DNA of 64,000 nt. Source: Bacillus massiliglaciei. Its GTDB lineage: Bacteria; Bacillota; Bacilli; Bacillales; DSM-1321. The notes under the pieces were generated by a model. The model was not told the origin of the DNA, did not search any database, and saw nothing but the letters and a program-made list of their open reading frames with translations. A program made the translations under genes and the position numbers. The DNA lies in the NCBI RefSeq assembly GCF_900098925.1, contig NZ_LT622360.1, positions 831,307 through 895,306 on the forward strand. The letters run 5' to 3'. Within the stretch, counting starts at the first letter, position 1. Each line of letters begins with the position of its first letter. Shown in pieces: positions 13,531 through 29,675 of the stretch.

Positions 13531-13647
13531 TATGCTAAAATGTGTTTAAAAGATTTAATTTATTTTTTCGCAAGGTTTAAAATTTTTATCACACCTATTA
13601 ATTTGCTTTAAGGTACGGAATAATTGAAGCTTGAAAGGGAGAGTTTA

Positions 13648-16482
13648 TTGAATTATAAGATACCGGTCATAATGTTAACAGTTATAGGATTAGCGACTCA
13701 TTTTTATTTTATAGGCAGGTATCTTTTGCTATCTGTAGCCGGGACAGAGAAAATTTGTGTTGTTGGGTCTTATGTTTTGATTATAGGGCCGGCGTTTATT
13801 TTATTTTACAAAACGCTTATGACAAAAGGAAAAAATGACAAGAAGTTTGAAACAAGATTTTTTTCGCTTTTTCAAAATAGTCATTCTTTAATATTTGTTT
13901 TGAATGAAGAGGGACTGATCAAGCAAGTGAATCCTAAAGTTTCCTCAGATTTAAATTATACAGAACAAGATTTAATGGGTATTCCTTTTTATTCATTATT
14001 TTTTGATAAGGACGAGCAGTATGGAATTCAAGATCTCTTAGATCTGGCAAATGACGGCATTGTCAGAACGTCCTCAGGAAAAGTTACAAACAAAGAGGGA
14101 AATGAGTATCAATTAAAGTTTACATTAGTGCCTAACTTGGAAAGGAATATGAAAATATCGAGTTATCTAGTGCTTGCAAAAGATATTAATGAATTAATCG
14201 AATACAAAGGAAGAATTGTAAAAACCCAAATTGAATTAAAAGAAACAGTCCATAGGCATCAAGGTTTGATTTTTAAATTTATTAAAGTCGGCGATTCCTA
14301 TATTCATACTTTAGCTGATGGACAGCTTATGGAAAAAATGAATTTAAAGAAAAAGCAGATTATTGGAAAGAAATTCAGTTTTGAAACTGAAAATAATGTC
14401 ATTCAATTCATACTTCCGCACTATGATGCAGCCTGGAAAGGAGATTTTATGACATTTGAAGGAGAAGCGAGAGGAATACATTTCCTTTGCTCGCTTTCCC
14501 CAATCATTAAGAATGGAATGATTACAGAGGTAATTGGTTCTGCGGTAGATATTACAGACCGAAAGACAGTCGAGGTAAAATTAAAGGAAAAGGAAAATCT
14601 ATATCGGACGGTTCTCAGTACGATGTTTGAAGGGATTTCTATTGTCCATCCTTCCGGGTGCTTAACAAACCTAAATGAGAATGTGGAGAAGCTGCTTGGC
14701 TTACCATCAGGTTTTTTTAATGAAGAAGAATTGGCAAATCGGGGAATAGAATTTGTTGATGAAGATTTAGCAGTGGTTACGTATGATGAATTGCCAGGTA
14801 TACAGACAATTAATAAAGGAATAGCTGTAAATAATGCTATTCTGGGAGTGAAAACTCATGGACTCTTGAAGAGATGGATTAAAATTAATTCCATGCCGCT
14901 TTTCCTATCAAATGAGCAGGCTGCATTGGTCTCCTTTTCTGATATATCAGAACAGAAAGAACAGGAAAGCATGGCGGAGGAAGCCTATACTTTAAATCAG
15001 GAGTTAATCGACAACTTGGAAACAGGCATTGCTGTCACCGACAATGACGGAAGAACACTGTTAACAAATGCATCTTTGAAACGAATGTTAAAGATTAATC
15101 CGCTAGAAAATTTTATTGGGAAAAAGGCCTCAGAATTTAAACATGGATTTTCTAAAAATGCTGAATTAAGCAGTGAATTGATTGAAATTAGAAAGGCAGG
15201 CAGAACAAGAACAGAACTAGTCAGCTCAGATGAGGGGCGTACATTTAGGATGCACTATACCATGCTGGCTATACCTAAGAAAGACAATGTGCATTTATGG
15301 ACATTTGAAGATTTGACAGAATTAATCAATCTTCAATTATCCTCACAAATGGCAAAAGAAGAAGCAGAGAAAGCGAATATGGCAAAATCAGAGTTTCTGT
15401 CAAAAATGAGTCATGAACTGAGGACTCCCTTAAACGGGATACTGGGCTTTGCACAGCTCTTGGAACTGGATCATACGTTAGATATCCGTCAGCAGAAATT
15501 CGTGACAGAAATTCGCAAAAGCGGAGGTCATTTATTAAGTCTGATCAATGAAGTACTAGATCTGTCCAGAATTGAAACCGGTCGTCTGAAAATTGCATTT
15601 GAAAACATAGATATTGTAAAAATAATCACTGAATGTGTTGCCATGGTTTTGCCATTGGCAAATAACCATAAACTTAGGATAGTCAATCAAGCAGCAGGGA
15701 AAGACAGTGTATATATAAAAGCTGACCCAACCCGTATAAAGCAGGTGATTTTAAACTTATTGGATAATGCTATTAAATATAATGTGAAAGAAGGGAGAAT
15801 AGAAATTTCATATAAAGAAACAGATAAAGGTATTAAAATTTTCATCAAGGATAGTGGGATCGGTGTACATCCAGACGAGATAGAGGCAATCTTTGAACCT
15901 TTTTACCGGATTAAAGGAACCAATGTTGAAGGAACCGGCATCGGTCTTTCATTAACAAAACAGTTAATCCAAATGATGGGCGGAACAATTGAGGTAAAAA
16001 GTACAAAAGGGAAAGGGAGCATTTTTCAAATCAGCCTTCTGTCTAATACAGATTCCGAAACTCATAAAAGAATGGAGAACAGATCAACAGTTTTATTAGA
16101 AACAAAAGAAGAGAACTCTGCACATCTATTATATATTGAAGACAATCAATCAAATATTGAATTAATAAATGAAATCATAAACACATGGACTGACCATCGA
16201 TTGCTATGGGCAAAAACAGGAAAGAACGGAATAGATAAAGCGTTAAATGAGAAAATCAGTTTAATTTTACTTGATCTCAGCCTGCCAGACATGAATGGCT
16301 ATCAAGTATTTGATGAATTGCAAAAGTATAGTCATACCAAGCATATTCCAATCATTGCTGTCAGTGCCAATGCAATGAAGAGAGACATTGAAATGACTTT
16401 GAAAAAAGGATTTCGGGATTTTGTGACAAAACCAGTAAATATAGAAGAATTATTGACGAAAATAAATAAATACCTTACGTAA
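13648..16482 (+). CDS. Hybrid sensor histidine kinase with PAS domains
   Basis: Membrane-anchored hybrid kinase, about 944 residues. Order: two membrane segments near the N-terminus, four PAS-type regions, a HisKA domain with the phospho-acceptor His in [12 protein letters not shown] (codon at 15412), HATPase_c with N box [15 protein letters not shown] and [12 protein letters not shown], and a C-terminal receiver with phospho-acceptor Asp in [11 protein letters not shown] (codon at 16273). TTG at 13648 is chosen because GAAAGGGAGAG precedes it; an upstream TTG at 13624 lacks one. No output domain is present, so phosphate must pass on, and the LytTR regulator 0.9 kb downstream is a candidate acceptor. 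A terminator follows. Confidence 0.92.
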
Positions 16483-16942: not shown

Positions 16943-17278
16943 ATGTTTACTTTTGAAATCCAGCCATCTCATGAAGATGGAGCCGTCATAGTCCAGCTTT
17001 ACGGTGATCTGGACATTGATGCAACAGAAATCATGTATGACAGTATTTTGCCTAGCTTAGACCGATTTCAAAAGATTACTATAGTAATGGCTAATGTTCC
17101 GTTCGTTGACTCAACAGGTATCGGATTGCTGATTAGTTTAATTGATTCAATGAAAACGAAGGAACCCCCTGCCGATATTTCAATCTCATGTGTGGATCAG
17201 CAGGTTAAACAAATTTTTGAAATAATGCAGTTTTCTGAAATAGTGGGAGAAGATATTTTTAAAAATTCCATAAAGTGA
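16943..17278 (+). CDS. STAS-domain anti-sigma-factor antagonist-like protein (A)
   Basis: Partner-switch protein of the SpoIIAA/RsbV class, 111 residues, a single STAS domain. The phosphorylatable serine is Ser57 in PFVDSTGIGLL. In this family the dephosphorylated form binds a GHKL kinase/anti-factor and releases its target. ATG at 16943 follows AAAGGAG. It resembles the STAS gene at 29310 more than the one at 26107: GDLDIDATE against GDLDIEATE, and FVDSTGIGLLISL against FVDSSGIGLLITL. The LytTR gene follows 80 bases on, after a hairpin. Confidence 0.9.
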   Translation: MFTFEIQPSHEDGAVIVQLYGDLDIDATEIMYDSILPSLDRFQKITIVMANVPFVDSTGIGLLISLIDSMKTKEPPADISISCVDQQVKQIFEIMQFSEIVGEDIFKNSIK

Positions 17279-17340: not shown

Positions 17341-17357
17341 AGAATAGAGGGAGCCTA

Positions 17358-18092
17358 ATGGGGAAATTTAAAATTGCAATTTCAGATGATGATCAAACAT
17401 CCAGAACGCTTTTGAGACACTATATTGAATTGTTTCCGGATTTTATGGTAATTGGAGAGGCTGCATCTGGAGAGGAATTAATTCAATTAGTGATGAATGA
17501 TTCTCCTGACATTATATTAGTGGATATTAATATGCCGGGGATGAGCGGAATAGAAACCGTTAAAGTATGTAAACAATTCAAGCCTTCTATACAAGTTATT
17601 TTTACCACTGGGTTTGATGAATACGCAGTTGAAGCTTTTAATTTGTCAGCTTTGGATTATCTGATTAAACCAATAGAAATATCCAGATTCAGCACCTCTT
17701 TAGACAAGGCAGCGAAAACAATTGCATTATTAAAATCTGCCGAATTAAAATTTATTCAACAGGTAAAAAAGCTGACTTTGAAAACAAATAATTCTTATTT
17801 ATACTTGCCGGTAGATGATATTCTTTTCCTCGAAAGAGAAAGCAGAAAAACGATCATACATACTTTGGATAAACAGTATGAGACAAATGAGGCATTGCAA
17901 TCTTTTGAAGACAAATTAAACGGCGACTTTTGTAAAACTCACCGATCATTTTTAGTGAACTTGAAAAAGATCGTGCATATTCAGCCAATAGGAGAATCTT
18001 ACACTGCTCATTTTTCGAATTATCCCAAAAAAGCCAATATTTCGAAACTTAAATTTAATGAGGTTCAGGAAACGCTTTCTGAATTAATCTAA
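17358..18092 (+). CDS. LytTR-family response regulator
   Basis: DNA-binding response regulator, 244 residues. Receiver domain (1-125) with Asp10/Asp11/Asp12 acidic pocket, phospho-acceptor Asp56 in ILVDINMPGMSG, the switch Thr in FTTGFDEYA and Lys in YLIKPIE. The C-terminal LytTR domain (about 140-244) shows LPVDDILFLERESRKTIIH and KTHRSFLVNLKKIVHI. LytTR regulators usually control cell-surface or secreted functions. Its likely partner is the hybrid kinase upstream, since no kinase is adjacent. A strong bidirectional terminator closes it, so its targets, possibly the pterin operon, would have a separate promoter. Confidence 0.92.
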   Translation: MGKFKIAISDDDQTSRTLLRHYIELFPDFMVIGEAASGEELIQLVMNDSPDIILVDINMPGMSGIETVKVCKQFKPSIQVIFTTGFDEYAVEAFNLSALDYLIKPIEISRFSTSLDKAAKTIALLKSAELKFIQQVKKLTLKTNNSYLYLPVDDILFLERESRKTIIHTLDKQYETNEALQSFEDKLNGDFCKTHRSFLVNLKKIVHIQPIGESYTAHFSNYPKKANISKLKFNEVQETLSELI

Positions 18093-18123
18093 TGATACTG
18101 GGTAAGAAATATGCATTCCAATG

Positions 18124-18182
18124 AAAAAAGCCGAATTAATTCAACTTTTACATGTAGAAGGTTGAATTAATTCGGCTTTTTC
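18124..18182. terminator. Bidirectional terminator with 22-bp perfect stem
   Basis: AAAAAAGCCGAATTAATTCAAC at 18124-18145 has its exact complement at 18161-18182, with a 15-base loop and A/T runs at both outer ends. It separates the regulator block from the pterin operon. Confidence 0.85.
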
Positions 18183-18637: not shown

Positions 18638-19243
18638 ATGTTACAGGCTAATTCAAATGTTTTGCATCCAATAGAAGAAGTATTAAAAGAAAATGACAAG
18701 ATTGAAGAAAGTGTTTCTGCCATTTTAACTGCATTAGGAGAGGACGTTTCACGTGAAGGGCTTTTAGATACTCCTAAACGAGTTGCTAAAATGTATCGCG
18801 AAGTTTTCTCTGGTATCGGAGTGGATCCCAAAGAGGCACTTACTACCACATTTGCTGAAGACTATGACGGGATCGTAACGGTTAAGGATATTACGTATTA
18901 TACATTTTGCGAGCATCATCTGATTCCTTTCTTCGGAAAAGCTCATATAGGATATATACCAAATGGCCGTGTGGTAGGCTTGAGCAAATTTGCCAGATTG
19001 GTAGAGCTGTCATCTAAACGTCCTCAAGTTCAGGAGCGTATGACAAATGAGATTGCAAATGCCATTCATACGGTTCTTCAGCCGAAGGGTGTGATTGTAA
19101 CGGTTGAAGGGAGTCACCTATGCATGTGTGCCCGCGGGGTGAAAAAACCTGGTGCTTCAACAGTAACCACGATAAAGAAAGGCTCATTTGCTGAAAATAC
19201 AGCCCTGTGTGAAGAGTTTGAACGGGCTGTTTCCAGAGTTTAA
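18638..19243 (+). CDS. folE: GTP cyclohydrolase I
   Basis: Makes 7,8-dihydroneopterin triphosphate from GTP, the first step of folate and biopterin synthesis. 201 residues, normal for type IA. The zinc site is complete: Cys91 and His94 in FCEHHLIPFFG and Cys162 in HLCMCARGVKK. TPKRVAKMYREVF and QVQERMTNEIA are family signatures. Start ATG at 18638 follows AGGAGTG. In Bacilli the housekeeping enzyme is normally in the mtr operon; here the gene heads a pterin-modifying operon with a PTPS 22 bases downstream, which points to a dedicated second copy. Confidence 0.93.
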   Translation: MLQANSNVLHPIEEVLKENDKIEESVSAILTALGEDVSREGLLDTPKRVAKMYREVFSGIGVDPKEALTTTFAEDYDGIVTVKDITYYTFCEHHLIPFFGKAHIGYIPNGRVVGLSKFARLVELSSKRPQVQERMTNEIANAIHTVLQPKGVIVTVEGSHLCMCARGVKKPGASTVTTIKKGSFAENTALCEEFERAVSRV

Positions 19244-19265
19244 GAAATAGAAGGGACAGACCTAT

Positions 19266-20084
19266 ATGCATTATTTATCTAGACGGGAAGAATTCTCAGC
19301 CGCACATTTTTATCATGTACCGGAGTGGTCAGAAGAAAAAAATGAATCAGCTTTCGGTAAGTGCCATCGACAGAACGGCCATGGACATGATTATCAATTA
19401 GAAGTGATGGTCAGAGGAAACTTTAATAGGAAGACTGGCATTGTTGTAAATACAACAGATATAAAGCACATAGTGAATACATTTATAGCCAAGGAACTGG
19501 ATGGGAAATTCCTGAATAAAGAGCTGCCATTTTTCAAAAGAAATCTTCCTACAACAGAGAACCTTGTCAACTATATCTGGAATGCCTTGCATGATAAATT
19601 TGAAGGCTGTGAACTGTACAGGCTTCGATTAAATGAAAACCATTACCTATCCGCTGAAAGGAAGCTAAACGGGATGACCTATTTAACTAGAAAATATCAT
19701 TTCTGTGCAGCGCACCGGCTGCACAGCATCCATTTATCTGATGAAGAGAATAAACGAATATTCGGCAAGTGCAATAATCCTCATGGACACGGTCATAATT
19801 ATTATGTTGATGTACAAGTTCACGGTGAGCCCCATCATCAAACCGGTATGATTATCGATCTAGCTCAATTAGATGAGATAGTCGAAAAGGTCATTCTGGA
19901 TAAATTCGACCATAAACATTTGAATTTGGATACAGAAGAGTTTGCAGAATTAAATCCAACATCTGAAGCAGTTGCAATGGTGATTTATGAGCTGCTGGCC
20001 CCTCATATTCCTCAGCTTTATAAAATTGGACTGTGGGAAACGGAAAAGAACTATTTCGAATATTTCGGCGAGAGGGAAAAATAA
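19266..20084 (+). CDS. Tandem-fused 6-pyruvoyl-tetrahydropterin synthase/QueD-like protein
   Basis: Two PTPS domains in one chain of 272 residues (family usually 120-150 each). Domain 2 (about 137-272) looks fully active: zinc His150, His174, His176, catalytic Cys169 in GKCNNPHGHGH, the Asp215-His216 pair in DKFDHKHLN, and the pterin-anchoring Glu258. Domain 1 (1-133) keeps zinc His14, His39, His41, Cys33 and Glu124, but the Asp-His pair is Asp79-Gly80. The first half is therefore probably impaired or specialised. The likely reaction is dihydroneopterin triphosphate to 6-pyruvoyltetrahydropterin, since FolE and a reductase flank it; QueD chemistry is the alternative, but no queC, queE or queF is near. 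Confidence 0.88.
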   Translation: MHYLSRREEFSAAHFYHVPEWSEEKNESAFGKCHRQNGHGHDYQLEVMVRGNFNRKTGIVVNTTDIKHIVNTFIAKELDGKFLNKELPFFKRNLPTTENLVNYIWNALHDKFEGCELYRLRLNENHYLSAERKLNGMTYLTRKYHFCAAHRLHSIHLSDEENKRIFGKCNNPHGHGHNYYVDVQVHGEPHHQTGMIIDLAQLDEIVEKVILDKFDHKHLNLDTEEFAELNPTSEAVAMVIYELLAPHIPQLYKIGLWETEKNYFEYFGEREK

Positions 20085-20803
20085 TGATTGACAAAAAAAG
20101 GATAAAAGGTAAAAACATAGCCATAACAGGTGCCACCAAAGGAATCGGCAGAGCTGCAGCCTTGCTCCTGAGTGAGCTTGGGGCCAATCTGTTAATTGGT
20201 TCAAGAACGTTGCAACATTCAGTGAATACTTCCGCAGAACTAAATACCAAAAAAGTAGAAGCTAATCTTGATGTTACAGATGAAGCATCTATTAAGAACT
20301 TTTTAATTAGTGGGTTGGATGAACTGGGCTCGATCGATGCATTAATTAATTGCGCGGGCTACGGGAATTTTGAATCGGCTTTTGAATTAAGTACTGAGGA
20401 CTTTGACCGGATGATTTCAGTGAATTTAAGAGGGACTTTTCTGACTTGTAAACATTTTGGGAATCATATGATAGAAAGTAAGTCAGGCAAGATCTTAAAT
20501 ATCATTTCGATCGCCGGCAGTAATGCTTTAGCAGGATGCGCAGGCTACTCTGCTTCGAAATTCGGAGCATTAGGCTTATCGAGGGTGCTGCAAATGGAAA
20601 TGAGAGGGACTGGCGTACAACTGACCTCTGTTTTACCAGGTGCGGTGAACACAGAATTTTGGGACCATATGAATCAAGTGCCTGATCGTTCAAAAATGAT
20701 TCCTCCTGAAACAATTGCTGAACATCTGGTTTATCTGCTATGTCAGCCGGATGGTGCAACAGTAGATGAAGTAACAATCATGCCGCCAATGGGGGTACTG
20801 TAA
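20084..20803 (+). CDS. Short-chain dehydrogenase, sepiapterin-reductase-like role
   Basis: Classical SDR of 239 residues. Seen: the NADP-binding TGATKGIG at 15-22, NCAG at 89-92, catalytic Ser142, Tyr155 and Lys159 in GYSASK, and PGAVNTEFW. Its ATG overlaps the stop of the PTPS gene (TAATG), so the two are translationally coupled. Arg40-Arg41-type residues after the second strand (GSRTL) favour NADPH. After GTP cyclohydrolase I and PTPS, a reductase of 6-pyruvoyltetrahydropterin is the obvious step, which completes a tetrahydrobiopterin-type pathway. The substrate assignment is from context, as SDR substrates cannot be read from sequence. Confidence 0.82.
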   Translation: MIDKKRIKGKNIAITGATKGIGRAAALLLSELGANLLIGSRTLQHSVNTSAELNTKKVEANLDVTDEASIKNFLISGLDELGSIDALINCAGYGNFESAFELSTEDFDRMISVNLRGTFLTCKHFGNHMIESKSGKILNIISIAGSNALAGCAGYSASKFGALGLSRVLQMEMRGTGVQLTSVLPGAVNTEFWDHMNQVPDRSKMIPPETIAEHLVYLLCQPDGATVDEVTIMPPMGVL

Positions 20804-20821
20804 CAAGGAGGTCGACAAGCG

Positions 20822-21739
20822 ATGAAGCCGCTGCTCAGCAGGATCCTGGGAACAAAAAAATTACAGGAAAGTGCAGCAATGCCGGTGCCTTTAACTATAA
20901 ACTCATTACAAGAACATCAAAGAGGGGCTGTAGTCGGCTGGATTGCAAATAAGCTTGGTCAATTGGTGCAGATCGAGGGCTGTGATAAAGGGATCTTGAT
21001 TTATTCATCCTTTCATAAAACGATAAAAAAAGCAGATACAGAAAATATAGAAGATTATCTTCTCTTTCTGGCGTATTCCCTCGTTTCATGGATGGAGACC
21101 AATGAAGATGTATATATAAAAATAAAAGAAATGCACTTACTGGACACGTACCATAAATGCCTTCTGGAAGTTTATGAGATGCTGAAAACGGATGACAGTC
21201 TGTATTTTAATAAAAGGCCGCCTGCAGAAGCCCAAATTAGTGAGGACGTAAAAATTTGGGAAGTGTATAGAGATGTACTTCATGCTTCAACTCAAAGGAA
21301 GTTCCTTCTTATAAAAGATGAAGAAGTTCAATCTTTTAAGGGCGGCGAAGTCCTATGCCATGAGCCGGTCGCCGCGAAAGAGGATATCCCAAAAGTTCGA
21401 AATATTGCCAAAGAAGTTTTAATAAATGAGGGACTGTCACCGAGCAAAGTTTCCAGTTATGTCTTGCTTATATCGGAAGGCATTACCAATATCCTGAAAC
21501 ATGCAAACTATGGCAGCCTGTGTATCGTAAAAAAAGAATCTTCTATCAATATAATAATAGAAGATAACGGAAAAGGATTTCCTTTAAAATCACTGCCCTA
21601 TACGACATTAATGGCAGGCTATTCAACTAAAAAATCACTTGGCCAGGGCTTTACCCTAATGCTGAAAATTGCAAGCAGGGTATTGCTGAGGACCTCATCA
21701 AACGGTTCTACATTAATTCTTGAATTCACTTATGAATAA
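20822..21739 (+). CDS. GHKL ATPase, RsbW/RsbT-like, with unique N-terminal domain
   Basis: 305 residues. The last ~125 form a HATPase_c domain like anti-sigma kinases: N box SEGITNILKHA (Glu219, Asn223), IEDNGKGFP (Asp248) and GYSTKKSLGQGFTLM (266-280). This is the kinase/switch class that phosphorylates STAS proteins. The first ~180 residues are predicted helical and match no domain I know, far longer than RsbW or RsbT (about 130-160). It follows the reductase by 18 bases with an AAGGAGGTC site. Within this locus it is the only candidate kinase for the three STAS proteins. Confidence 0.8.
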   Translation: MKPLLSRILGTKKLQESAAMPVPLTINSLQEHQRGAVVGWIANKLGQLVQIEGCDKGILIYSSFHKTIKKADTENIEDYLLFLAYSLVSWMETNEDVYIKIKEMHLLDTYHKCLLEVYEMLKTDDSLYFNKRPPAEAQISEDVKIWEVYRDVLHASTQRKFLLIKDEEVQSFKGGEVLCHEPVAAKEDIPKVRNIAKEVLINEGLSPSKVSSYVLLISEGITNILKHANYGSLCIVKKESSINIIIEDNGKGFPLKSLPYTTLMAGYSTKKSLGQGFTLMLKIASRVLLRTSSNGSTLILEFTYE

Positions 21740-21757
21740 GGGGCTGACACTTATTAA

Positions 21758-22828
21758 ATGAAAGGTAATAAAGTGATTCCGTCAATAGATGGAACCATCC
21801 ATAAAACACTTTTAACAAGCGTCCTGCAAGATGGCTTTTGGAGCCGCTGGTTCGCTCATGGAATAGAACCTAGCATTTTAAATTCCAATAGAATTGCGCT
21901 TGCCTCTTTGGATGGCTGGATCTCGATACTGAGTGAGAGTGCGCTCAGTCATTCGCTGAGGGCAGAAGAATATAAGAAAAAAGGCAACAAGTCAGAAGCC
22001 GAACAATATTACAGGCTGTCAGGACTCTATTATTGTTTAATTCAGTGGGTATATCCTGCTCCAGATATTAATAAGAATGCCTGGCATGCTTTAGTACAGA
22101 ATCAGTTCGATAAAGCGGATGCGTTATCCGATGATTTAATAACGGTTCACAAGATTACTATAAATGGAAGAAAGCATATTGGCAGAGTCAGAGTCCCTGT
22201 AAACTCTGCAGGGACTGTAATCATTGTTAATCCGATTGACTCTCCAAAAGAAGAATTATTTTCTTATGAAAAGGACTTTGCTGAAGCTGGATTTACTGTC
22301 ATAAGCTTTGATGGACCTGGTCAGGGGGGAAGTGTGTTTGACAAAGACAATAAAGCAAGCACGGAAAGCTGGGGACTGTTTCTGAATCGTATAATCGAGT
22401 TTTCACATAGAAAATTTCCATCAGACCCATTGCATCTTTTTGGTACCAGCTCGGGGGCGGCATGGGCAATTGAAGGCAGTCAGCATCCTTTCATTAGCAA
22501 ATCTGTCGCAGTCAGCCCGCCGTGCGGGACTCAAACCGAAATGCCCGACTACTTCAAAGAAAGAATGCATCATGCTTTAGAAGACTTCAACAGTGGCTTC
22601 CTGCCCAGTCCAGATAAACTTGAATTAAGTAAGAACGTTCTTCTATTTCATGGTAAACAAGATGTCATGGTGAAGGGTTCAGATATATATGATCTATATT
22701 CCAGATTGGAAAACCCTAAACGGCTTATTGAGTATGAGGAGGCCGGGCATTGCTGCGATGAGAAGTTACAAGAAATAAGAAAGCGTTCTATCCAATGGTT
22801 CAAAGGAGAGAGTTTGGATGAGATTTAA
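21758..22828 (+). CDS. Alpha/beta hydrolase
   Basis: 356 residues: a helical N-terminal part (1-130, VLQDGFWSRWFAHG) and a C-terminal alpha/beta-hydrolase core with nucleophile Ser231 in FGTSSGAAW, Asp302 in HGKQDVMV and His331 in EEAGHCCDE. The layout resembles FrsA-like and C-C-bond or ester hydrolases with an N-terminal cap. Its end overlaps the acyl carrier protein start by 11 bases. It may release or transfer an acyl group from that carrier; a thioesterase or acyl-transfer role is inferred from context only. No signal peptide, so it acts in the cytoplasm. Confidence 0.82.
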   Translation: MKGNKVIPSIDGTIHKTLLTSVLQDGFWSRWFAHGIEPSILNSNRIALASLDGWISILSESALSHSLRAEEYKKKGNKSEAEQYYRLSGLYYCLIQWVYPAPDINKNAWHALVQNQFDKADALSDDLITVHKITINGRKHIGRVRVPVNSAGTVIIVNPIDSPKEELFSYEKDFAEAGFTVISFDGPGQGGSVFDKDNKASTESWGLFLNRIIEFSHRKFPSDPLHLFGTSSGAAWAIEGSQHPFISKSVAVSPPCGTQTEMPDYFKERMHHALEDFNSGFLPSPDKLELSKNVLLFHGKQDVMVKGSDIYDLYSRLENPKRLIEYEEAGHCCDEKLQEIRKRSIQWFKGESLDEI

Positions 22829-23054
22829 CGAATTTTGCAAGAGCATCTTCGAAATTATTGAAATAGAATCAGAAGATATTTCCGAGTCCAGTTCCTTTAA
22901 AAATGATCTTGATATCGATTCCCTTCAAATGGTAAACGTTGTGATAGGAATTGCCGAAAAATATGAGATCCCTTTTGAGAGACTCGTACTAAATTCTGAA
23001 CACATTCACACAGTGGGCGGACTGTATAACATCGTGAAAGGTGAAACAAAATGA
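22818..23054 (+). CDS. Acyl/peptidyl carrier protein
   Basis: 78-residue stand-alone phosphopantetheine carrier. Ser35 in LDIDSLQMV is the prosthetic-group attachment site, and the sequence has the four-helix acidic pattern of the family. It is not the housekeeping acpP, which lies with fatty-acid genes. Overlaps at both ends (11 bases with the hydrolase, 4 bases with the ligase) show tight coupling. It most likely receives a substrate from the AMP-forming ligase that follows. Confidence 0.9.
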   Translation: MRFNEFCKSIFEIIEIESEDISESSSFKNDLDIDSLQMVNVVIGIAEKYEIPFERLVLNSEHIHTVGGLYNIVKGETK

Positions 23055-24484
23055 TTCCATTGATTCAAAAAGTTATAAATCCAGTATCAGACAAAATTGC
23101 ACTGACTACCTTTGATGGTTCGTTTTCTGGCCGGGATATAGGTATTTTAACTGAGCGATATGAAAAATTACTGGCACCGTTGGATATTAAGGGAAAGAGG
23201 ATTGGCTTGCTGGTAACTGTTATCGAAGAATATCTTTCTCTTTTGTTTGCTGTCAATAAATTAGGAGGTATTGTCATTCCGCTCAGTTGGCAATTTAGAC
23301 ATGAAGATTTGACAAAAGTGCTTGAACTGCTTGATCCTCATATAATCTTTTCCATAACAGAGCATAATGGATTTCATTTCTCAGATGTCATCCAAACATG
23401 GGCTGAATGTTCTAATAAAAAGACACAGATTTTCACATCTGACAGTTGCTCAGAATGGAACCTTACTCACTTCATCGGGGAAGAAAAAGAACTTGATGAG
23501 GAGGGGAAAGATTTCATTTGCTGCTCTTCAGGCAGTACCGGCACTCCAAAGGGACTCGTATTTAATATGAAGGTATTTGATTTCTCATACAAGCTAATAA
23601 GTGACTTCCAAAAAATTAACTCTGAGGATAACGTCTTATTCTACGCCTCAACCAGTACCATTTATGGAATTAAATCGATGACCAACATTATTCGAGCCGG
23701 CGCAAATGTATTTGTTCCATCATCATTTGATCTGCCAGCCATCATCCAGACGATGAAACAAGCGAATTGCAATAAAATCGTTACAACCCCATCTATATTT
23801 AAAGCAATTTACTCTTTTGCCGTTCATTTATGTCCGCAAGTCATCGCTAATTTAAAGTTAGTATGCCTGAGCGGAGAAAGAATGCCGGAGAACTTTGCTG
23901 ACCAATTTCCGGATATGGATCATTGTGAATTTTCATCACAGTATGGCATATCGGAAATCGGAGCCATCGGTTTCGCTAATCTTCGTTCGGGCTTGGAGCA
24001 TACTATCTATAAAGAGATTGATTTTACAATTAAAAATGGTGAGCTTCTGGTCAGAACAGGTGCCGTATTTTCCGCGTATTATCGCAATAAAGAGCTGACA
24101 GATAGTGCTTTTGAAAATGGCTGGTATGCAACAGGTGACCTAGTTGAATTACAATCTGACAATCGTTCTATTACAATTGTGGGCAGAAAGAAAGACATGA
24201 TTAAAAAAGGCGGACAGCAAGTCATTCCAGGTGAAATTGAAGCTGTGCTTTCTGAAATAGAAGGTATCAAACAGGCAGTCATTATAGGGATCCCACATGA
24301 TATATACGGAGAGCAAGTAGCAGCTTTTGTTGTGTCAGAGGGCATAAGCGCGTCTGAAATACGAAGTTTACTGAAAGGGAAAATTTCTGCTTATAAAATC
24401 CCGGATAAAATCATTTCACTTGACGCCTTCCCTATGACGCAAGGAAAGGTTGATAAAATAAAATTGAAATCATTCATTGCATAA
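23051..24484 (+). CDS. AMP-forming acyl/aryl ligase (ANL superfamily)
   Basis: 477-residue adenylating enzyme. Motifs: A3 CCSSGSTGTPKG (157-168), A5 SQYGISEIG, A7 YATGDLVEL, A8 GRKKDMIKKGGQQVIPGEIE, and the C-terminal catalytic Lys466 in MTQGKVDKIKL. It activates a carboxylic acid as AMP ester and most likely loads the carrier protein whose stop it overlaps (ATGA). The N-terminal domain is somewhat short for the family. No condensation or ketosynthase domain is nearby, so a single acyl or aminoacyl unit is expected rather than an assembly line. The substrate is unknown. Confidence 0.88.
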   Translation: MIPLIQKVINPVSDKIALTTFDGSFSGRDIGILTERYEKLLAPLDIKGKRIGLLVTVIEEYLSLLFAVNKLGGIVIPLSWQFRHEDLTKVLELLDPHIIFSITEHNGFHFSDVIQTWAECSNKKTQIFTSDSCSEWNLTHFIGEEKELDEEGKDFICCSSGSTGTPKGLVFNMKVFDFSYKLISDFQKINSEDNVLFYASTSTIYGIKSMTNIIRAGANVFVPSSFDLPAIIQTMKQANCNKIVTTPSIFKAIYSFAVHLCPQVIANLKLVCLSGERMPENFADQFPDMDHCEFSSQYGISEIGAIGFANLRSGLEHTIYKEIDFTIKNGELLVRTGAVFSAYYRNKELTDSAFENGWYATGDLVELQSDNRSITIVGRKKDMIKKGGQQVIPGEIEAVLSEIEGIKQAVIIGIPHDIYGEQVAAFVVSEGISASEIRSLLKGKISAYKIPDKIISLDAFPMTQGKVDKIKLKSFIA

Positions 24485-24500
24485 TTTACGGAGGAGCAAG

Positions 24501-26093
24501 ATGGATAAATTCAAGACAGGGAATACACTGAAACATCAATTTATTATTAAAATATTTCTTGTTTTCATTATCATAACGTTAGTGCTCGGTTCAATTCAGT
24601 ATTACTATTTAAGCAAACAAATCAACAATGATGTAAATAACGAAGCAAAACAAATTGAAACCAGTATAGAACAGGGAATAAAGGAAACGGACCTAGCGTC
24701 CCGCTCTATAGAACAACAAATAGATGTCAGGTTAAAAATCATAGCAGAAAGAATCAGTGAACGGCTTGAAAATAAAAAGGTTGAAGAAATCACAAACGAA
24801 GAGTTGAAAAGGATCAGCAGTGAATTTGAAATAAGCGGCATCACTATTTTCACTAAGGAATCAGATGATATCGTAGGAGCAAAATCCACGGAGCCGAACG
24901 ATATTGGTTTTAGTTTTAAAAAAGAATTAGGGGCCGAGGATTCTGGTTTTATCGGATTGAGTCATTTACTTGATAATAAAATGCCTGTGCAAAATGGTGA
25001 AAGTTATGTAGATGAAAATACAATTATTTTACTTACCTCTCAATCGGGTTCCCATAAAAATAAACCGACCTTTTTTAAATATGCATACTATCATAAAAAG
25101 GGTCAGGATTTCGTCATAAACCCGTTCATTGAAGCAAATGAAGTATATCAATTCACACAGTCTGTCGGCCCTGATACCTGGATTCAAAATGTTGTGAATA
25201 CCAATAAAGTGGCTAAGGAAGTAGCTGTGTTAGAACCTCGTGTTTATGCTGATCCCAGTTTAGCCGAAAAAATGTATCCCCCTTTAAAAAAGGTTGTTTA
25301 CGGAGAGTTTGCCCTTGCAAACAAGAAAGACAAAGCAATTCTAAAAGGTATGGCTAAAGATCCAAAAAGAACTTCTTATATAAGCGGAGAAGGTGAAGAT
25401 AAACTATACAAAGTGTTTATACCAAGGGAGAACGGACAAGTTATTTATGTCGCCTTAGATTATAGTGTGATTAGTAAACCGCTGCATAAGTTAGCGATCT
25501 TACTCATTGCCTTCAGCGCAGTATCGTTACTCGCCTTGTTTATATTAACGGCTCGATTTTTCAGTTCACTTTATAAGCAGATTCAGGAAATCATCAAACA
25601 GATTAAACAATTGGAATCTGGAGATTTTACTGCTAAGAGTAATGTAAAAGCAAAAGGAGAATTAGCCAGTCTTTCTGCCAGCACGAATCATATGACTGCC
25701 ATATTAAATAAGGTATTAAAGGATACAACAAAACAGGCAGAGAAAGTCCAGCATTTATCTCAGGAATTAAAATCAGAGACTGATAGTTCTGTAGATACTG
25801 TATATGCCTTATCACTCGATTTAACGGCAAATGCAAGAGAAGATAATTTTGAAATTACTGATTTTCTGAACAGACTGGAGCAAGCATTAAAAAAAGCTCC
25901 TAAAAATGAGGAAATGTTAAACGTATTAGAAAGTATCGAGAAAATAAGAGACATATCAAATACCCGCTCCGAATCAACGACTCAGATTACCTTAATTTTA
26001 GCTGACTTATTAAAATCCTTACAGCTTCAATCCGATGAGCTTTTGAATATTTCTAGTGAGTTATTTCATGATATGTATAAATTTAAATTGTAA
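24501..26093 (+). CDS. Membrane sensor with Cache-like domain and HAMP, no output domain
   Basis: 530 residues. Two membrane segments (about 15-36 and 328-352) enclose an extracellular region of about 290 residues that begins with a long coiled coil (NEAKQIETSIEQ...) and continues as a probable Cache-type sensor. After the second segment come a HAMP domain (about 353-405, KQIKQLESGDFTAKSNV) and a helical tail without kinase, cyclase or MCP signature. ATG at 24501 follows GGAGGAGC. Its place before a STAS and an RsbU-type phosphatase gene suggests that it relays an outside signal to the phosphatase. Confidence 0.8.
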   Translation: MDKFKTGNTLKHQFIIKIFLVFIIITLVLGSIQYYYLSKQINNDVNNEAKQIETSIEQGIKETDLASRSIEQQIDVRLKIIAERISERLENKKVEEITNEELKRISSEFEISGITIFTKESDDIVGAKSTEPNDIGFSFKKELGAEDSGFIGLSHLLDNKMPVQNGESYVDENTIILLTSQSGSHKNKPTFFKYAYYHKKGQDFVINPFIEANEVYQFTQSVGPDTWIQNVVNTNKVAKEVAVLEPRVYADPSLAEKMYPPLKKVVYGEFALANKKDKAILKGMAKDPKRTSYISGEGEDKLYKVFIPRENGQVIYVALDYSVISKPLHKLAILLIAFSAVSLLALFILTARFFSSLYKQIQEIIKQIKQLESGDFTAKSNVKAKGELASLSASTNHMTAILNKVLKDTTKQAEKVQHLSQELKSETDSSVDTVYALSLDLTANAREDNFEITDFLNRLEQALKKAPKNEEMLNVLESIEKIRDISNTRSESTTQITLILADLLKSLQLQSDELLNISSELFHDMYKFKL

Positions 26094-26106
26094 GGGGTGC
26101 ATCTGA

Positions 26107-26424
26107 TTGTTGTTCAAAGTTGAAAGCAGCTTGGCTGGCACTGTTCAATATATTGGGATGATAGGAGTGTTAGATTACTCTACTGTGGATTCCTTTGATT
26201 TTGTTAATGAAACACCAGATTATGTAAAGGAATTCATTATAGATTTCTCTGCTTTAGAATTCATTGATTCCACAGGCATCGGCGCTATTTTGACCATCTT
26301 GCACAAAGCCAGCTCACTTCAAGCGATTGTGACATTTCAAGGAATGTCAGAAGAAACAGTCGACTTATTCGAAACAATTGGACTTTATGAAATCAAAAAA
26401 GCTTTATTAAATGAGGAGGTCTAG
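26107..26424 (+). CDS. STAS-domain anti-sigma-factor antagonist-like protein (B)
   Basis: 105-residue STAS protein. Ser55 in EFIDSTGIGAIL is the expected phosphorylation site. TTG start at 26107 follows AAGGGG. It ends only five bases before the phosphatase start, with the phosphatase ribosome site inside its last codons. It is the most divergent of the three STAS proteins of the locus (GVLDYSTVDSF replaces the GDLDI(D/E)ATE of the others), so it probably has a different partner, for instance the HAMP sensor or the phosphatase. Confidence 0.88.
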   Translation: MLFKVESSLAGTVQYIGMIGVLDYSTVDSFDFVNETPDYVKEFIIDFSALEFIDSTGIGAILTILHKASSLQAIVTFQGMSEETVDLFETIGLYEIKKALLNEEV

Positions 26425-26428
26425 CCTG

Positions 26429-27256
26429 ATGTTCAGACGTGAATTAGACCATTCGCACCAAGATTTGGCTTCTGCGAGCAAAACGCTGGAAAGAGAGATC
26501 AACCTGGCGAAAAATATTCAGCAAACACTATTAAATGGCGAAAAACCTTCTTTAGAAAATGATGAAATCACTGGCATTTCCATCCCTGCAAGATTAATAG
26601 GCGGAGATTATTTCGATTTTTACTCATTGCCTAACGGAAAATTACGAGTCATTATCGGCGATGTTATGGGAAAAGGCATACCTGCAGCAATGCTGATGAT
26701 TTTAACAAGAGGTGCTTTCCGGACAGCTGCTGAATCAACTCAAGGACCTGGTGAAACATTAACCTCAATGAATAATGCCTTATACAAGGATTTACGGAAA
26801 TTAAAATCATTTGTAACCGTCTTCTGTGCTGATTGGGATTCTAAAACAGGCTTGTTTACTTATGCGAATGCAGGGCATTCTTTGCCTGAAATTATAAGAA
26901 GTGATGCAGAGAAAGTCCAGGTTCCTAAAGTAAAAGGCGTCATGCTGGGCGGACTGCCGAATCAGGTCTATCACCAAGAATCGATTACATTAATTGATGG
27001 TGACTTAATCGTACTCTATACAGATGGGATTATTGAAGCGCAAAACACTGAAGGAGAAATGTATAAATCTGAAAGATTATTAAATGTTTTAAAGGAAAGT
27101 ATCACACGAAGTGCATCTGAAATTGAAACCGCTGTTGTAGCAAGTGTGGAGAATTTTACTGAAACCATGCCGCAAAGAGATGATATTACATTAGTTACAC
27201 TCAAAGTCGGGAGTGACAGAACAGAAATATCTGGTTTTAATTCTCCTCTGGTGTAA
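26429..27256 (+). CDS. SpoIIE/RsbU-type PP2C serine phosphatase
   Basis: 275 residues. A coiled-coil linker (1-35, LEREINLAKNIQQTLL) precedes the PP2C_SpoIIE domain with metal-binding Asp in GGDYFDF, GDVMGKGIPAAMLM, YANAGHSLP, LYTDGIIEA and RDDITLV. It removes phosphate from STAS proteins and so activates partner switching. ATG at 26429 follows GAGGAGGTC; an upstream start lacks a site. It lacks the N-terminal RsbT-binding domain of B. subtilis RsbU, so its activation must come from elsewhere, perhaps the HAMP sensor through the coiled coil. Confidence 0.92.
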   Translation: MFRRELDHSHQDLASASKTLEREINLAKNIQQTLLNGEKPSLENDEITGISIPARLIGGDYFDFYSLPNGKLRVIIGDVMGKGIPAAMLMILTRGAFRTAAESTQGPGETLTSMNNALYKDLRKLKSFVTVFCADWDSKTGLFTYANAGHSLPEIIRSDAEKVQVPKVKGVMLGGLPNQVYHQESITLIDGDLIVLYTDGIIEAQNTEGEMYKSERLLNVLKESITRSASEIETAVVASVENFTETMPQRDDITLVTLKVGSDRTEISGFNSPLV

Positions 27257-27273
27257 AAAGGGAGGTATCGATA

Positions 27274-29310
27274 ATGGAAAAGAATATCGTTTCTAAAGGA
27301 AAATCAGTACAAGAAGCTCTGGAAACTGCTTTGGACCTTCTTGGTGTTACAAGCAATGAGGTCAATATCGAGGTGCTGGATCCGGGAGAAAAAGGCTTTC
27401 TCGGTTTTAAAGCAAAACCGGCAGTCGTTCGCGTAACACCACTTCAAAGAGAAAAATCTGAAAAGCGGTACATTGAAGATAGAGAAAATTTGAAGTTCCT
27501 TGAGTCGATATCTGCGAATAATCCAGAAGAGAACAATCCAGTGGAAAATCTTCAAGGCACCGCATGGGTTTCTAATGGAAAAATCTATTGTAAGGATGCG
27601 GAGAATAAATATCCGCTTATTAATCCTGCTAAAGGGGTAACTCTTTATAAAAATGATATATTGGTCCGGTACACGGATATCATCAGTGAAAGTGATACCA
27701 TTCGGGCGGAAGTGATAAATGAAGTGATACGGCCGTCTTGGGAGATTGTCTTAAATTCAGATAAGTCAGAAGCACTGCTTAAAGTAAAACCGGGTATGAA
27801 ATTGATCCGAAAGCTAAAGGACACTTCGCCAAATACCAATTTACATTTAGAAATTACAGAAGAAAAAATACCACTTTTTATTGAAGTAGAAAAGATACTT
27901 GAAGAAGCGACAAAAAGGGGTATTGTTCATGGGTTAGATTTTTCTGGCATTCATTTAGCCTGTCAGTCAGAAACGGAGGGAACCTTCGTACTGGCAAAGG
28001 CTACTATGCCAGTACAAGGGAAACACGGATTCTTTCAGGTCTTGCAATCGGTCGAGATCAAGACATTTATAAAAGAGCGCTTCGACGGTTCAGTTGATTT
28101 CAGAGAAATAAAAGAGTTTCCTTCAGTTGATTTCGGTCAAGTAATAGGAGTGGTCATTCCTCCGAAAGCAGGAACACCAGGAATAACAGTCACTGGAGAG
28201 CCGCTGCAGCCAGCAGAGGCTCATCCGCTTATCTTAAAACCTGGAAAAGGAGTGCTTGTTGCAGAGGGCAATAAAGTGGTGGCTACTGTTTCAGGTCATC
28301 CCGAAGTAAAAATAAAAGGACAGTTAGCTTCTATTTCGGTGATTCCTAAATTAGTCATTCAAAATGATGTTACCTTAGAAACTGGAAATGTTCATTATAT
28401 TGGGGTTGTTGAAATTACCGGTTCTGTACAGGATGGCATGCAGGTAGAAGCAACAGGAAATATATTGGTAAAGGAAAATACAAATAAGTCCAAAATTATA
28501 TCAGAAGGTTCGATTGTAGTCCAAAAGAATGTCATCGGCAGTATATTAACTGCCGGCAGCAGCGGCTTATTGAAGACAAATTTAGCAAGGCTGCTTATAG
28601 ATTTGATCAATAGCCTTAGAAGAATGGCAGATGCCATTAATCAACTATCACAAATTTCTGCATTCAAAGAAACGTCATTAAAACTAACTGGATTAGGACC
28701 CTTAATCAAAATTTTAACTGAAAGCAAATTTAAAGATTTTCCTGAATTAACAACATCAGTTATAAAAAAAATTCGAACAGGTTCCTCTGAGCTTGAGACG
28801 GAATGGCTGGAATTTGCAGAAAGTCTGAATAAGAATTTCGTTGCTATTCCAATTTCTGGTTTAAAGTCAGCGGAAGATATTCTGAGTATCATCCAGCAGG
28901 CTGAGGCTCTGCTTGCCTCCGTTAAGGGAAATGAGACAAATTCAGCTGATGTAAGAGCCGAAAATGTTCAAAACAGTGAATTATATTCCAGCGGTGATAT
29001 CGTTATTTCCGGAAAAGGAGTCTATAATTCCAAGCTTTATGCAAAGAGAAATATTTCAATTAAAGGGTTTCTTAGAGGCGGGGAAATATACGCTGAAGCA
29101 GATATCGATTTAAATGAAGTTGGTGAGCGTTCGGGTTCTTCAGTATTGGTTGCAACATCCTCAAAAGGCAAAATTAAAATCAAAACGGCTTCAGAAGATA
29201 CAACCATTCAAGTAGGGGACCAGTCGCAAAAACTGTTAAAAAAATCAACTAATATTATGGCCGGCTTAGATGAACATGGCCAATTAGTCATTTCCCAAGG
29301 AGTGGTTTGA
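27274..29310 (+). CDS. Jag_N-DUF342 (FapA-like) protein
   Basis: 678 residues. The N-terminal Jag_N domain (about 1-55, GKSVQEALETALDLLG and GEKGFLGFKAKPAVV) is the kind found before RNA-binding modules in KhpB/Jag. A DUF342/FapA region follows (about 170-470: GIVIPPKAGTPGITVTGEPL, GKGVLVAEGNKVVATV), then beta-helix-like repeats typical of bactofilin-type or FapA C-termini with a helical insertion near 445-560. FapA proteins act at the cell pole or in flagellar assembly in other bacteria, but the biochemical function is open. Its stop overlaps the last STAS gene (TGATG), so the two are probably partners. Confidence 0.82.
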   Translation: MEKNIVSKGKSVQEALETALDLLGVTSNEVNIEVLDPGEKGFLGFKAKPAVVRVTPLQREKSEKRYIEDRENLKFLESISANNPEENNPVENLQGTAWVSNGKIYCKDAENKYPLINPAKGVTLYKNDILVRYTDIISESDTIRAEVINEVIRPSWEIVLNSDKSEALLKVKPGMKLIRKLKDTSPNTNLHLEITEEKIPLFIEVEKILEEATKRGIVHGLDFSGIHLACQSETEGTFVLAKATMPVQGKHGFFQVLQSVEIKTFIKERFDGSVDFREIKEFPSVDFGQVIGVVIPPKAGTPGITVTGEPLQPAEAHPLILKPGKGVLVAEGNKVVATVSGHPEVKIKGQLASISVIPKLVIQNDVTLETGNVHYIGVVEITGSVQDGMQVEATGNILVKENTNKSKIISEGSIVVQKNVIGSILTAGSSGLLKTNLARLLIDLINSLRRMADAINQLSQISAFKETSLKLTGLGPLIKILTESKFKDFPELTTSVIKKIRTGSSELETEWLEFAESLNKNFVAIPISGLKSAEDILSIIQQAEALLASVKGNETNSADVRAENVQNSELYSSGDIVISGKGVYNSKLYAKRNISIKGFLRGGEIYAEADIDLNEVGERSGSSVLVATSSKGKIKIKTASEDTTIQVGDQSQKLLKKSTNIMAGLDEHGQLVISQGVV

Positions 29311-29633
29311 TGTTTAAATATACAGTCTCTAAAAAAGAGAATCAGACTGTTTTTAAATTAGAAGGAGATCTGGATATTGAAGCAACAGAGGTCATTGAAG
29401 AAAAAATGACAGAAGATCTCAGTGAAGGAAATACAGATGTCGTTTTTGATTTCCAGAACATTGATTTCGTTGACTCTTCAGGGATTGGCCTTTTAATTAC
29501 TTTAGTCACAGATTTAAAAGAGAATAACAGGAATCCGGTCATTATACATGTACAAGAAGATGTTAAGTTTGTTTTTGATCTGCTGGAATTAGATAAAATA
29601 TTAGGAAGCGATGTTTTAGCATTTAACAGCTAG
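29310..29633 (+). CDS. STAS-domain anti-sigma-factor antagonist-like protein (C)
   Basis: 107 residues from the ATG at 29310 that overlaps the preceding stop. Ser56 in DFVDSSGIGLLIT is the phospho-site. It is the close paralogue of the STAS protein at 16943, so similar STAS genes bracket the locus. It is the last gene of the operon and is followed by an intrinsic terminator. Its likely antagonist is the HATPase at 20822 and its phosphatase the enzyme at 26429. Confidence 0.9.
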   Translation: MFKYTVSKKENQTVFKLEGDLDIEATEVIEEKMTEDLSEGNTDVVFDFQNIDFVDSSGIGLLITLVTDLKENNRNPVIIHVQEDVKFVFDLLELDKILGSDVLAFNS

Positions 29634-29646
29634 GCTTTTATAGATA

Positions 29647-29675
29647 AAAAGCGGGATAAGATCCTGCTTTTTTTA
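29647..29675 (+). terminator. Terminator of the pterin/partner-switch operon
   Basis: AAAAGCGGGAT (29647-29657) / ATCCTGCTTTT (29661-29671) with a T run. Marks the end of a transcript that could run from about 18612, roughly 11 kb. Confidence 0.8.

Follow-up and report, generated by a model that had tools for sequence, protein, structure and literature searches.

The stretch of DNA analysed here (the window) comprises 64,000 nucleotides of Bacillus massiliglaciei (NZ_LT622360.1, positions 831,307 to 895,306) and carries an operon of twelve + strand genes at 18638-29633, in the order folE, tandem PTPS (6-pyruvoyl-tetrahydropterin synthase), SDR (short-chain dehydrogenase/reductase), GHKL, HYD (alpha/beta hydrolase), ACP (acyl carrier protein), ANL (AMP-forming acid ligase), membrane sensor, STAS1, PP2C, Jag_N-FapA and STAS2. 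We propose, and give about an even chance to, the reading that this operon makes its own pterin-derived extracellular signal and carries a Cache-type receptor for it that drives partner switching. All evidence for the operon is comparative. Comparison of aligned loci shows HYD, ACP, ANL and the sensor ectodomain to be one co-inherited cassette, and genome surveys place a second home of the pterin genes beside enzymes of cyclic di-GMP (c-di-GMP) turnover; both points were absent from an earlier, sequence-only reading of this DNA.

In the proposed mechanism, FolE, the tandem PTPS and SDR would convert GTP to a biopterin-type tetrahydropterin, as their families and motifs suggest, and HYD, together with ACP and ANL in most lineages, would tailor this pterin, with ANL picking the acid, a role suggested by linkage. 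The product would leave the cell and bind the Cache-type ectodomain of the sensor, to which co-inheritance and fold point. The cytoplasmic helices of the sensor may then set PP2C against GHKL, shifting STAS phosphorylation in line with established partner-switch logic and with the intact active-site residues, and STAS and FapA would relay this state, the likeliest target being c-di-GMP turnover or surface behaviour, as enriched EAL neighbours suggest. Product, export, binding and output are what we infer from these comparisons.

Conservation, co-inheritance and a second genomic home

For the survey of loci, 202 GHKL relatives were collected, 30 of them aligned, and used to fetch 66 loci from named genomes. 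We find a tandem PTPS gene more than 50% identical to that of the window in 44 of the 66 (PTPS-positive loci), accompanied by SDR in 44, HYD, STAS1 and PP2C in 43 each, the sensor in 42, FapA in 41, folE in 39, ACP in 33 and ANL in 32; the gene just before the sensor is ANL in 32 places and HYD in 9. The gene order of the window recurs in 18 of the 44, and 7 more differ by missing ACP and ANL only, in a comparison that merges STAS types, drops weak matches below 30% and ignores neighbouring kinase and LytTR genes. None of the 22 GHKL loci without PTPS contains folE, SDR, HYD or ACP, and 15 of these hold STAS1, PP2C and FapA together, which argues that the partner switch is a stand-alone core and the pterin genes are an add-on. 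Among 397 genomes of the order, 22 have the tandem PTPS, 44 have GHKL (E up to 1e-20) and 18 have both, where 2.4 would be expected (P about 1e-15); in 18 of 18 the PTPS and GHKL matches lie less than 1 kb apart on one contig. Such conservation of the gene set excludes chance.

Conservation beyond close relatives had been set beforehand as a test of the sequence-only reading, and is seen in Pullulanibacillus, Ureibacillus, Lysinibacillus, Paenibacillus, Cohnella, Brevibacillus, Domibacillus, Oceanobacillus, Gracilibacillus, Virgibacillus and others, so that, on comparison of their sequences, the operon is kept together in many soil bacilli. Its distribution is patchy, as only 2 of 36 genomes of the window's own genus have a close GHKL (E below 1e-50); at E 0.001 a GHKL match is found in 9 of the 36, 7 of these only at about 1e-3. 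A plasmid or viral origin was considered and rejected, with 0 GHKL (E 1e-5) or tandem-PTPS (E 1e-30) matches in a plasmid collection and 0 GHKL relatives in viral contigs; one database name puts a Bacillus methanolicus tandem PTPS on a plasmid. Phage defence was likewise rejected, as the eight operon proteins scanned, of the twelve, give no PADLOC match at E 0.001.

Between-locus distances of folE, PTPS, SDR, GHKL, STAS1, PP2C and FapA inter-correlate across 37 loci; in the same 37, distances of HYD and the whole sensor correlate at 0.73, and both are less correlated with the other genes. This whole-sensor mirror-tree, from which L043, L013 and L046 were not excluded by name, was replaced by an analysis that takes the ectodomain and the cytoplasmic half apart. 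The co-inheritance tests omit L043, which has degraded pterin genes and is still counted among the 44, as well as L013 and L046, which have duplicated cassettes, and L028 and L062, without a sensor, stand outside the tests needing one; correlations use 26 loci, permutations 36 and 27, the label test 40 and the ANL-loss trees 39, and close pairs are drawn from 325 pairs.

Given the backbone, ANL correlates with the ectodomain at 0.65 and HYD with ACP at 0.70, the ectodomain with its own cytoplasmic half at 0.47, and ANL with folE at 0.02. Other adjacent pairs range from 0.08 (SDR-GHKL) to 0.46 (STAS1-PP2C), with folE-PTPS at 0.38. GHKL and STAS1, presumably its substrate, correlate at 0.69 although four cassette genes intervene, which indicates that the method is able to find non-neighbouring partners. 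With GHKL and folE held, the ANL-ectodomain correlation is 0.64 and unmatched in 2000 permutations; SDR-ectodomain and PP2C-cytoplasmic half are unremarkable in the same permutations. To account for the loss of ANL, which is missing from 9 of 39 loci, the HYD tree needs 1 change and the ectodomain tree 2, and 0 of 500 shuffles reach so low a count; the PP2C tree needs 7 (100 shuffles as low), the GHKL tree 7 (86) and the SDR tree 9 (500). When well-supported branches are counted, the minimum is 1 change for HYD, 1 for the ectodomain, 4 for the cytoplasmic half, 5 for GHKL, 5 for SDR and 6 for PP2C.

Individual pairs of loci illustrate this pattern. Along the operon, Domibacillus epiphyticus and D. 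antri share 76-94% identity except in ANL (54%) and the ectodomain (57-62%), with identity back at 85-86% in the transmembrane-HAMP region and cytoplasmic half; HYD and ACP stay alike (81%). Between Lysinibacillus fusiformis and Aquibacillus sediminis, GHKL, STAS1 and FapA are 31-35% identical, and HYD through the ectodomain 63-74%. Across 68 close pairs the least conserved of 12 segments is ANL or the ectodomain in 47, with mean identities of 44 for ANL, 49 for ACP, 50 for the ectodomain, 50 for FapA, 55 for HYD, 57 for GHKL and 58 for the cytoplasmic half, by which ACP and FapA are variable as well. Linkage alone hardly explains a change that falls within the sensor gene. In these alignments enzyme and ectodomain are co-polymorphic and joined to a more conserved output half, the pattern that marks a quorum-sensing cassette, here seen between species.

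The second home emerges from surveys of 397 and 398 genomes, which give 31 distinct tandem-PTPS matches, 24 of them in partner-switch operons. The other 7 (L102-L107 and L144) all adjoin GGDEF-EAL genes. L102 and L103 share the order GGDEF-EAL, PTPS, HYD, GGDEF, a PilZ-like protein and SDR, with domains assigned by Pfam on L102 only and PilZ just under the cut-off. In L104-L107 and L144 a GGDEF-EAL membrane protein carries the ectodomain of the sensor, scoring 119-138 bits with an ectodomain profile of 42 rows (the window and 41 pterin loci; Pfam domains were checked for L104 and L105). EAL open reading frames (ORFs) are also enriched around the 44 PTPS-positive loci, with 24 in 22 loci versus 1.9 expected from genome density, an expectation that uses rounded genome sizes and assumes even spacing, with loci scored by our own profile and genomes by Pfam. 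A first count took 24 loci picked after some c-di-GMP neighbours had been seen; the recount covered all 44, and the 20 loci outside the first 24 hold 7 of these ORFs.

Operon genes, receptor and surroundings

The twelve genes overlap or are separated by no more than 22 bases when the sensor is started at ATG 24501 and SDR at ATG 20084 (Table 1). The sequence-only reading had named them as one compact run, and Pfam and NCBIfam, from which the family calls are taken, recover each on the + strand in its place. A terminator scan of 18638-29633 gives 0 + strand sites, hence none between SDR and GHKL, and the three terminator-like sites inside the operon are all on the - strand; within 16600-30650 the + strand has two, one flanking the operon on either side. 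As the scan yields 8 sites in total versus 9.1 in shuffles, only the length (20 and 12 pairs) and the placement of the flanking two count. Upstream lie three genes that are possibly associated; a blast relative of the hybrid histidine kinase is present in 18 of the 44 PTPS-positive and 7 of the 22 PTPS-negative loci, and a relative of the LytTR regulator in 11 and 6, respectively.

Table 1. Operon genes, flanking terminators and possibly associated upstream genes, in window coordinates
Feature	Position	Strand	Family match or other evidence
Hybrid histidine kinase, possibly associated	13624..16482	+	PAS, HisKA, HATPase, REC
Third STAS protein, possibly associated	16943..17278	+	PF01740
LytTR response regulator, possibly associated	17358..18092	+	PF00072, PF04397
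Strong stem-loop terminator, upstream, behind LytTR gene	18130..18176	+	20-pair stem then T run
folE, GTP cyclohydrolase I	18638..19243	+	PF01227 239 bits; NCBIfam subfamily PRK09347 254 bits
Tandem 6-pyruvoyl-tetrahydropterin synthase, two PTPS-II type domains	19266..20084	+	PF01242, two stretches
SDR, occupying the sepiapterin reductase position in the pathway	20084..20803	+	PF00106 160 bits
GHKL (RsbW-like) serine kinase with its own N-terminal region	20822..21739	+	PF13581
HYD, alpha/beta hydrolase	21758..22828	+	PF12146
ACP, acyl carrier protein	22818..23054	+	PF00550
ANL, AMP-forming acid ligase (ANL family)	23051..24484	+	PF00501, PF13193
Membrane sensor: Cache-type ectodomain, second transmembrane segment and HAMP-like region, helical output segment	24501..26093	+	start ATG 24501 after GGAGGAG
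STAS protein 1, candidate phospho-Ser55	26107..26424	+	PF01740
PP2C phosphatase, SpoIIE type	26411..27256	+	PF07228 177 bits
Jag_N-FapA (DUF342) protein	27274..29310	+	PF14804, PF20250, PF03961
STAS protein 2, candidate phospho-Ser57	29307..29633	+	PF01740
Terminator directly behind operon	29646..29672	+	12-pair stem then T run

Motifs and conserved residues support the view that the operon encodes a biopterin-type pathway. Both PTPS domains of the window protein carry CxxxxxHGH, and the 43 copies with letters there all keep the Cys and both His of this motif; the available part of PMC5041015 assigns this motif to PTPS-II (biopterin), with type III for folate and type I for queuosine. FolE keeps six Cys/His residues in 39 of 39 copies, and SDR its Ser, Tyr and Lys in 43 of 44, the remaining row being gapped. 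The best solved relatives of the tandem PTPS are animal 6-pyruvoyl-tetrahydropterin synthases, and 2bd0, which we take to be the Chlorobium sepiapterin reductase, ranks sixth of 591 solved relatives of the window SDR with a nearly end-to-end match. The PTPS gene named earlier is present and is, more exactly, a tandem of two PTPS domains. Domain 2 retains a Cys-Asp-His triad; in domain 1, all 43 copies with letters at the position have Gly instead of the residue that we take to be the catalytic His, yet retain the Cys and the HGH histidines, an altered yet conserved active site. The checked catalytic and motif residues are otherwise conserved, the exceptions being one gapped row in PTPS and SDR and an Asp to Asn change in 2 copies of PTPS domain 1. 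The earlier suggestion that a reduced pterin is made is thereby supported in part, at the level of a probable pathway. Housekeeping folate supply was set aside in view of the type II motif and of another folE on contig C16, that of the window being the second copy in the genome.

Among the tailoring genes, the Ser-Asp-His of HYD is kept in 43 of 43 copies, the Ser of the DSL motif of ACP in 33 of 33 and seven motif residues of ANL in 32 of 32. Remote relatives of HYD are DHPON hydrolase, Ayg1-like proteins and AntI, presumably C-C bond hydrolases or polyketide trimming enzymes. HYD occurs in 12 of 274 genomes searched (not the same set as the 397), and 12 of 12 are PTPS genomes; it also accompanies PTPS in the two c-di-GMP operons L102 and L103, which lack ACP, ANL and the sensor. 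This confinement and the presence in L102 and L103 suggest that HYD belongs to the pterin chemistry.

The switch genes are well preserved, with seven ATP-site residues of GHKL, in what we take to be the N, G1 and G2 boxes, identical in 44 of 44 copies, the Asp-Ser of STAS1 kept in 43 of 43 and of STAS2 in 40 of 40, and five metal-binding Asp residues of PP2C in 43 of 43. The idea that synthesis and sensing may be wired to serine-phosphorylation switching finds support in the active-site residues of GHKL, STAS and PP2C, which are intact in all aligned PTPS-positive copies. In core-only switches GHKL also occurs as the C-terminal domain of an HD-domain (HD-GYP-like) membrane protein (L070:8468-10546 and L076:8459-10474, the latter by sequence only), a fusion that hints at c-di-GMP control.

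The predicted structure of the sensor ectodomain, modelled from 24576-25490 (pLDDT 91.9), shows a Cache fold; its structure-search matches are Cache folds, and the best Foldseek match is the periplasmic domain of Chlamydia RsbU. Pfam assigns the ectodomain to no such family: that of the window (E up to 1) matches two chance families, neither of them Cache, with the dCache_1 profile unmatched, and for 50 aligned members no Cache family is among the best 25 of 29 families. What had been called a HAMP sensor is indeed a membrane sensor, but its own sequence gives no Pfam HAMP match at E 0.001; it weakly resembles HAMP-bearing sensors, and some of its relatives match HAMP, which is the ground for the label. 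The receptor class, delimited by score cuts of our own and with the divergent class counted per genome and not per locus, is mostly lost or divergent without pterin genes, the exceptions being L055 and the split locus L031. A third output type is seen where the ectodomain is fused to an apparent histidine kinase, by sequence (L149:8405-10666, - strand, 394 bits; L150:8869-11085, + strand, 258 bits). A divergent ectodomain also forms, by itself, a membrane protein of about 350 residues away from the partner-switch locus (L151:8589-9635 and L152:7520-8575, both - strand).

Elsewhere in the window, a protoglobin-MCP fusion (a globin-coupled chemoreceptor) lies about 9 kb upstream of the operon at 8409-9716. 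Several transposase-like ORFs, recognised by eye (3216-3686, 4056-4889, 5614-7119, 49351-49782 and 59430-61717), point to an abundance of insertion elements around the operon. Two overlapping, seemingly frame-shifted ORFs occupy 1456-2362, the first resembling a ribonucleotide reductase small chain (33.4 bits, just under the Pfam cut-off), and a thiamine pyrophosphate-enzyme gene is divided into two ORFs, with the N-terminal and middle domains at 32077-32901 and the C-terminal domain at 33040-33693. A Lar (presumably nickel-pincer) cluster at 38023-40868 and 44710-45972, with neighbours of the AIRC, NAD_synthase and LarA families, contains a split LarC (Ni_insertion family), its N-terminal half at 39285-40016 (+) and its C-terminal half as an ORF of its own at 38023-38475 (-).

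Weighing a pterin-derived signal against its rivals

A number of results weigh against a self-made pterin signal read by this receptor. The ectodomain correlates with folE at 0.03, PTPS at 0.16 and SDR at -0.03 given the backbone, so that pterin as part of the ligand rests on the confinement of HYD to PTPS genomes and on the receptor class. The cytoplasmic half partly follows the cassette, at 0.50 with HYD and 0.46 with ANL given the backbone and, with GHKL and folE held, at 0.31 and 0.43, values also unmatched in 2000 permutations; on its tree ANL loss takes 6 changes, with 16 of 500 shuffles as low. The Domibacillus pair shows a local dip to 42% in FapA and a fall to 60% at the C-terminus of HYD. 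In the Lysinibacillus-Aquibacillus pair the whole sensor moved (cytoplasmic half 63-73%), and folE, PTPS and PP2C, at 61-69%, are no less alike than the cassette. The fold matches of the ectodomain are low, with TM-scores of about 0.15-0.45, and the fold points to no ligand. Ectodomain and pterin genes also part company: the ectodomain of the PTPS-positive partner-switch operon L143 is divergent (174 bits), and HYD, ACP and ANL are all absent from this operon, and a pterin-class ectodomain occurs without PTPS in two of 397 genomes, namely Fredinandcohnia quinoae (L055, G182), which lacks the tandem PTPS, and G110, where it sits on a kinase-like protein. On the c-di-GMP side, the ectodomain is found on a protein of GGDEF-EAL size in 21 genomes, 14 of them without PTPS, which suggests that this subfamily has other ligands or feeds on the pterins of others; EAL ORFs are enriched at the 22 PTPS-negative loci too, with 9 versus 0.9 expected, by which the EAL link belongs to the switch, and the 64-kb window contains no EAL gene. 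Finally, no exporter is found among the twelve operon genes, and no switch target, sigma factor or other, is recognised among them by Pfam, FapA being a candidate only.

The weak tie between ectodomain and pterin genes would fit a non-pterin, acid-derived signal, made by HYD, ACP and ANL for the receptor while the pterin genes serve another purpose within the same regulon. We consider this unlikely: the ectodomain does track ANL and HYD rather than folE, PTPS or SDR, L143 fits, and ANL and ACP are both missing in 9 of 39 loci, but 12 of 12 HYD genomes are PTPS genomes, HYD stays with PTPS in the c-di-GMP operons that have no ACP, ANL or sensor, and the receptor class is mostly lost or divergent where pterin genes are absent, apart from L055 and the split L031. 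Slightly less likely still, in our view, is a pterin that serves as a redox, light or oxygen probe, with the receptor reading the extracellular oxidation state as has been suggested for PruR-DcpA. Reduced pterins are redox-active and excreted, as the available part of PMC13259868 describes, the c-di-GMP and partner-switch outputs are those of stress sensing, and the match of the ectodomain to Chlamydia RsbU would suit such a role; a probe of this kind has no need, however, of an acid-activating ligase and a carrier protein whose divergence tracks the receptor.

We regard as improbable that the pterin serves nitric oxide (NO) synthase or an aromatic hydroxylase as a cofactor, or is a secondary metabolite, and that the switch only controls its production, with the sensor reading an unrelated cue. 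NO synthase is present in 13 of 25 genomes tested, that of the window included, but is missing in the other 12, and an aromatic amino acid hydroxylase is found in 0 of 25; supply of either enzyme was rejected on these counts, and a cofactor leaves unexplained both the co-inheritance of tailoring genes with the ectodomain and the ectodomain on GGDEF-EAL proteins beside PTPS. That the run from HYD to the ectodomain is a mere recombination tract, with no ligand-receptor relation, seems to us very improbable. HYD, ACP, ANL and the sensor are adjacent in nearly all loci (the sensor after ANL or HYD, as counted above), and adjacent genes share recombination tracts, which inflates the correlations in part; neighbours elsewhere correlate too, as do folE-PTPS and STAS1-PP2C, and the whole sensor moved in the pair L015-L052. 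Against this, the match stops within the sensor gene (2 changes for the ectodomain, 6 for the cytoplasmic half), HYD and ACP remain alike in Domibacillus while ANL and ectodomain diverge, and the ectodomain keeps in step with ANL more closely than with its own C-terminal half. Autoinducer-2 (AI-2) was considered as well and is a possible ligand of the receptor.

Beyond a self-made pterin signal as such, we tentatively suggest, at somewhat less than an even chance, a pterin-based pheromone language in Bacilli. HYD, ACP and ANL would place a lineage-specific acyl or related group on a biopterin-type core that only the matching Cache receptor reads, and specificity cassettes would be swapped between species, with the break often near the membrane boundary of the receptor, plugging foreign pairs into the partner switch or c-di-GMP circuit of the host. 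Known Gram-positive quorum signals are mostly peptides. If our reading is true, chemical signalling in Gram-positive bacteria would include a new kind, in which Bacilli use a small molecule derived from pterin and have receptor specificity groups built in; it would give a common function to the tandem PTPS and to a Cache subfamily without a Pfam family, supply a candidate input for FapA-carrying partner switches, and open the old puzzle of excreted pterins to experiment.

Relation to known signalling systems

In searches of the open-licence literature of PubMed Central we found no description of such an operon, the nearest systems being ComQXP and the proteobacterial PruA-PruR-DcpA. PruA is a pteridine reductase, which we take to be of the SDR family. 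Pterin signalling has been described in Proteobacteria, as covered in the available part of a 2026 review (PMC13259868): in Agrobacterium tumefaciens and others, PruA-PruR-DcpA lets a reduced pterin act outside the cytoplasm on a membrane sensor, and outputs of the PruR pathway are c-di-GMP or a histidine kinase, in DcpA and DTB types. In that part of the text Bacillus, Gram-positive, Firmicutes, STAS, acyl and PTPS each have 0 occurrences. Like PruA-PruR-DcpA, the ectodomain of the window has relatives on GGDEF-EAL and kinase-like proteins. Unlike it, the operon combines a full FolE-PTPS-II-SDR pathway with HYD/ACP/ANL tailoring, a Cache receptor and a partner-switch output, in Bacilli; Pfam finds no PruR-type pterin-binding domain in the 12 operon proteins, and without a PruR gene the operon is not a member of the PruR-DcpA family.

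The biosynthetic half resembles the bacterial tetrahydrobiopterin pathway of FolE, PTPS-II and sepiapterin reductase, as set out in the available part of PMC5041015, in having the same three enzyme types in the same order with the PTPS-II motif, and differs from it in the tandem PTPS, whose domain 1 has a conserved Gly instead of the catalytic His, and in the signalling genes of the operon. The switch half resembles RsbU-RsbV-RsbW modules, with a GHKL kinase, a STAS antagonist with a candidate phospho-Ser, a SpoIIE-type phosphatase and a membrane sensor. Here, unlike in those modules, sensor and phosphatase are separate proteins, the operon contains no sigma factor, and Jag_N-FapA and biosynthesis genes are added.

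AI-2 is made by LuxS, outside the operon of its receptor. AI-2 sensing is a precedent for a Cache domain as the receptor of a self-made signal, in the available part of PMC7584622; here, unlike in AI-2 sensing, the enzymes lie in the operon of the receptor, and the ectodomain matches no Pfam Cache family. ComQXPA, as the available part of PMC4008528 describes it, joins a variable signal-modifying enzyme and a variable sensing half of the receptor to a conserved cytoplasmic domain, and in the same way ANL and the ectodomain of our operon vary together and the cytoplasmic half follows less. Where ComQXPA has the modified peptide ComX and the histidine kinase ComP, small-molecule enzymes and partner switching stand in our operon, in which we note no peptide gene. 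With putative signal enzymes and the receptor in one operon, it resembles a synthase-receptor cassette of the ComQXP or Agr-like kind.

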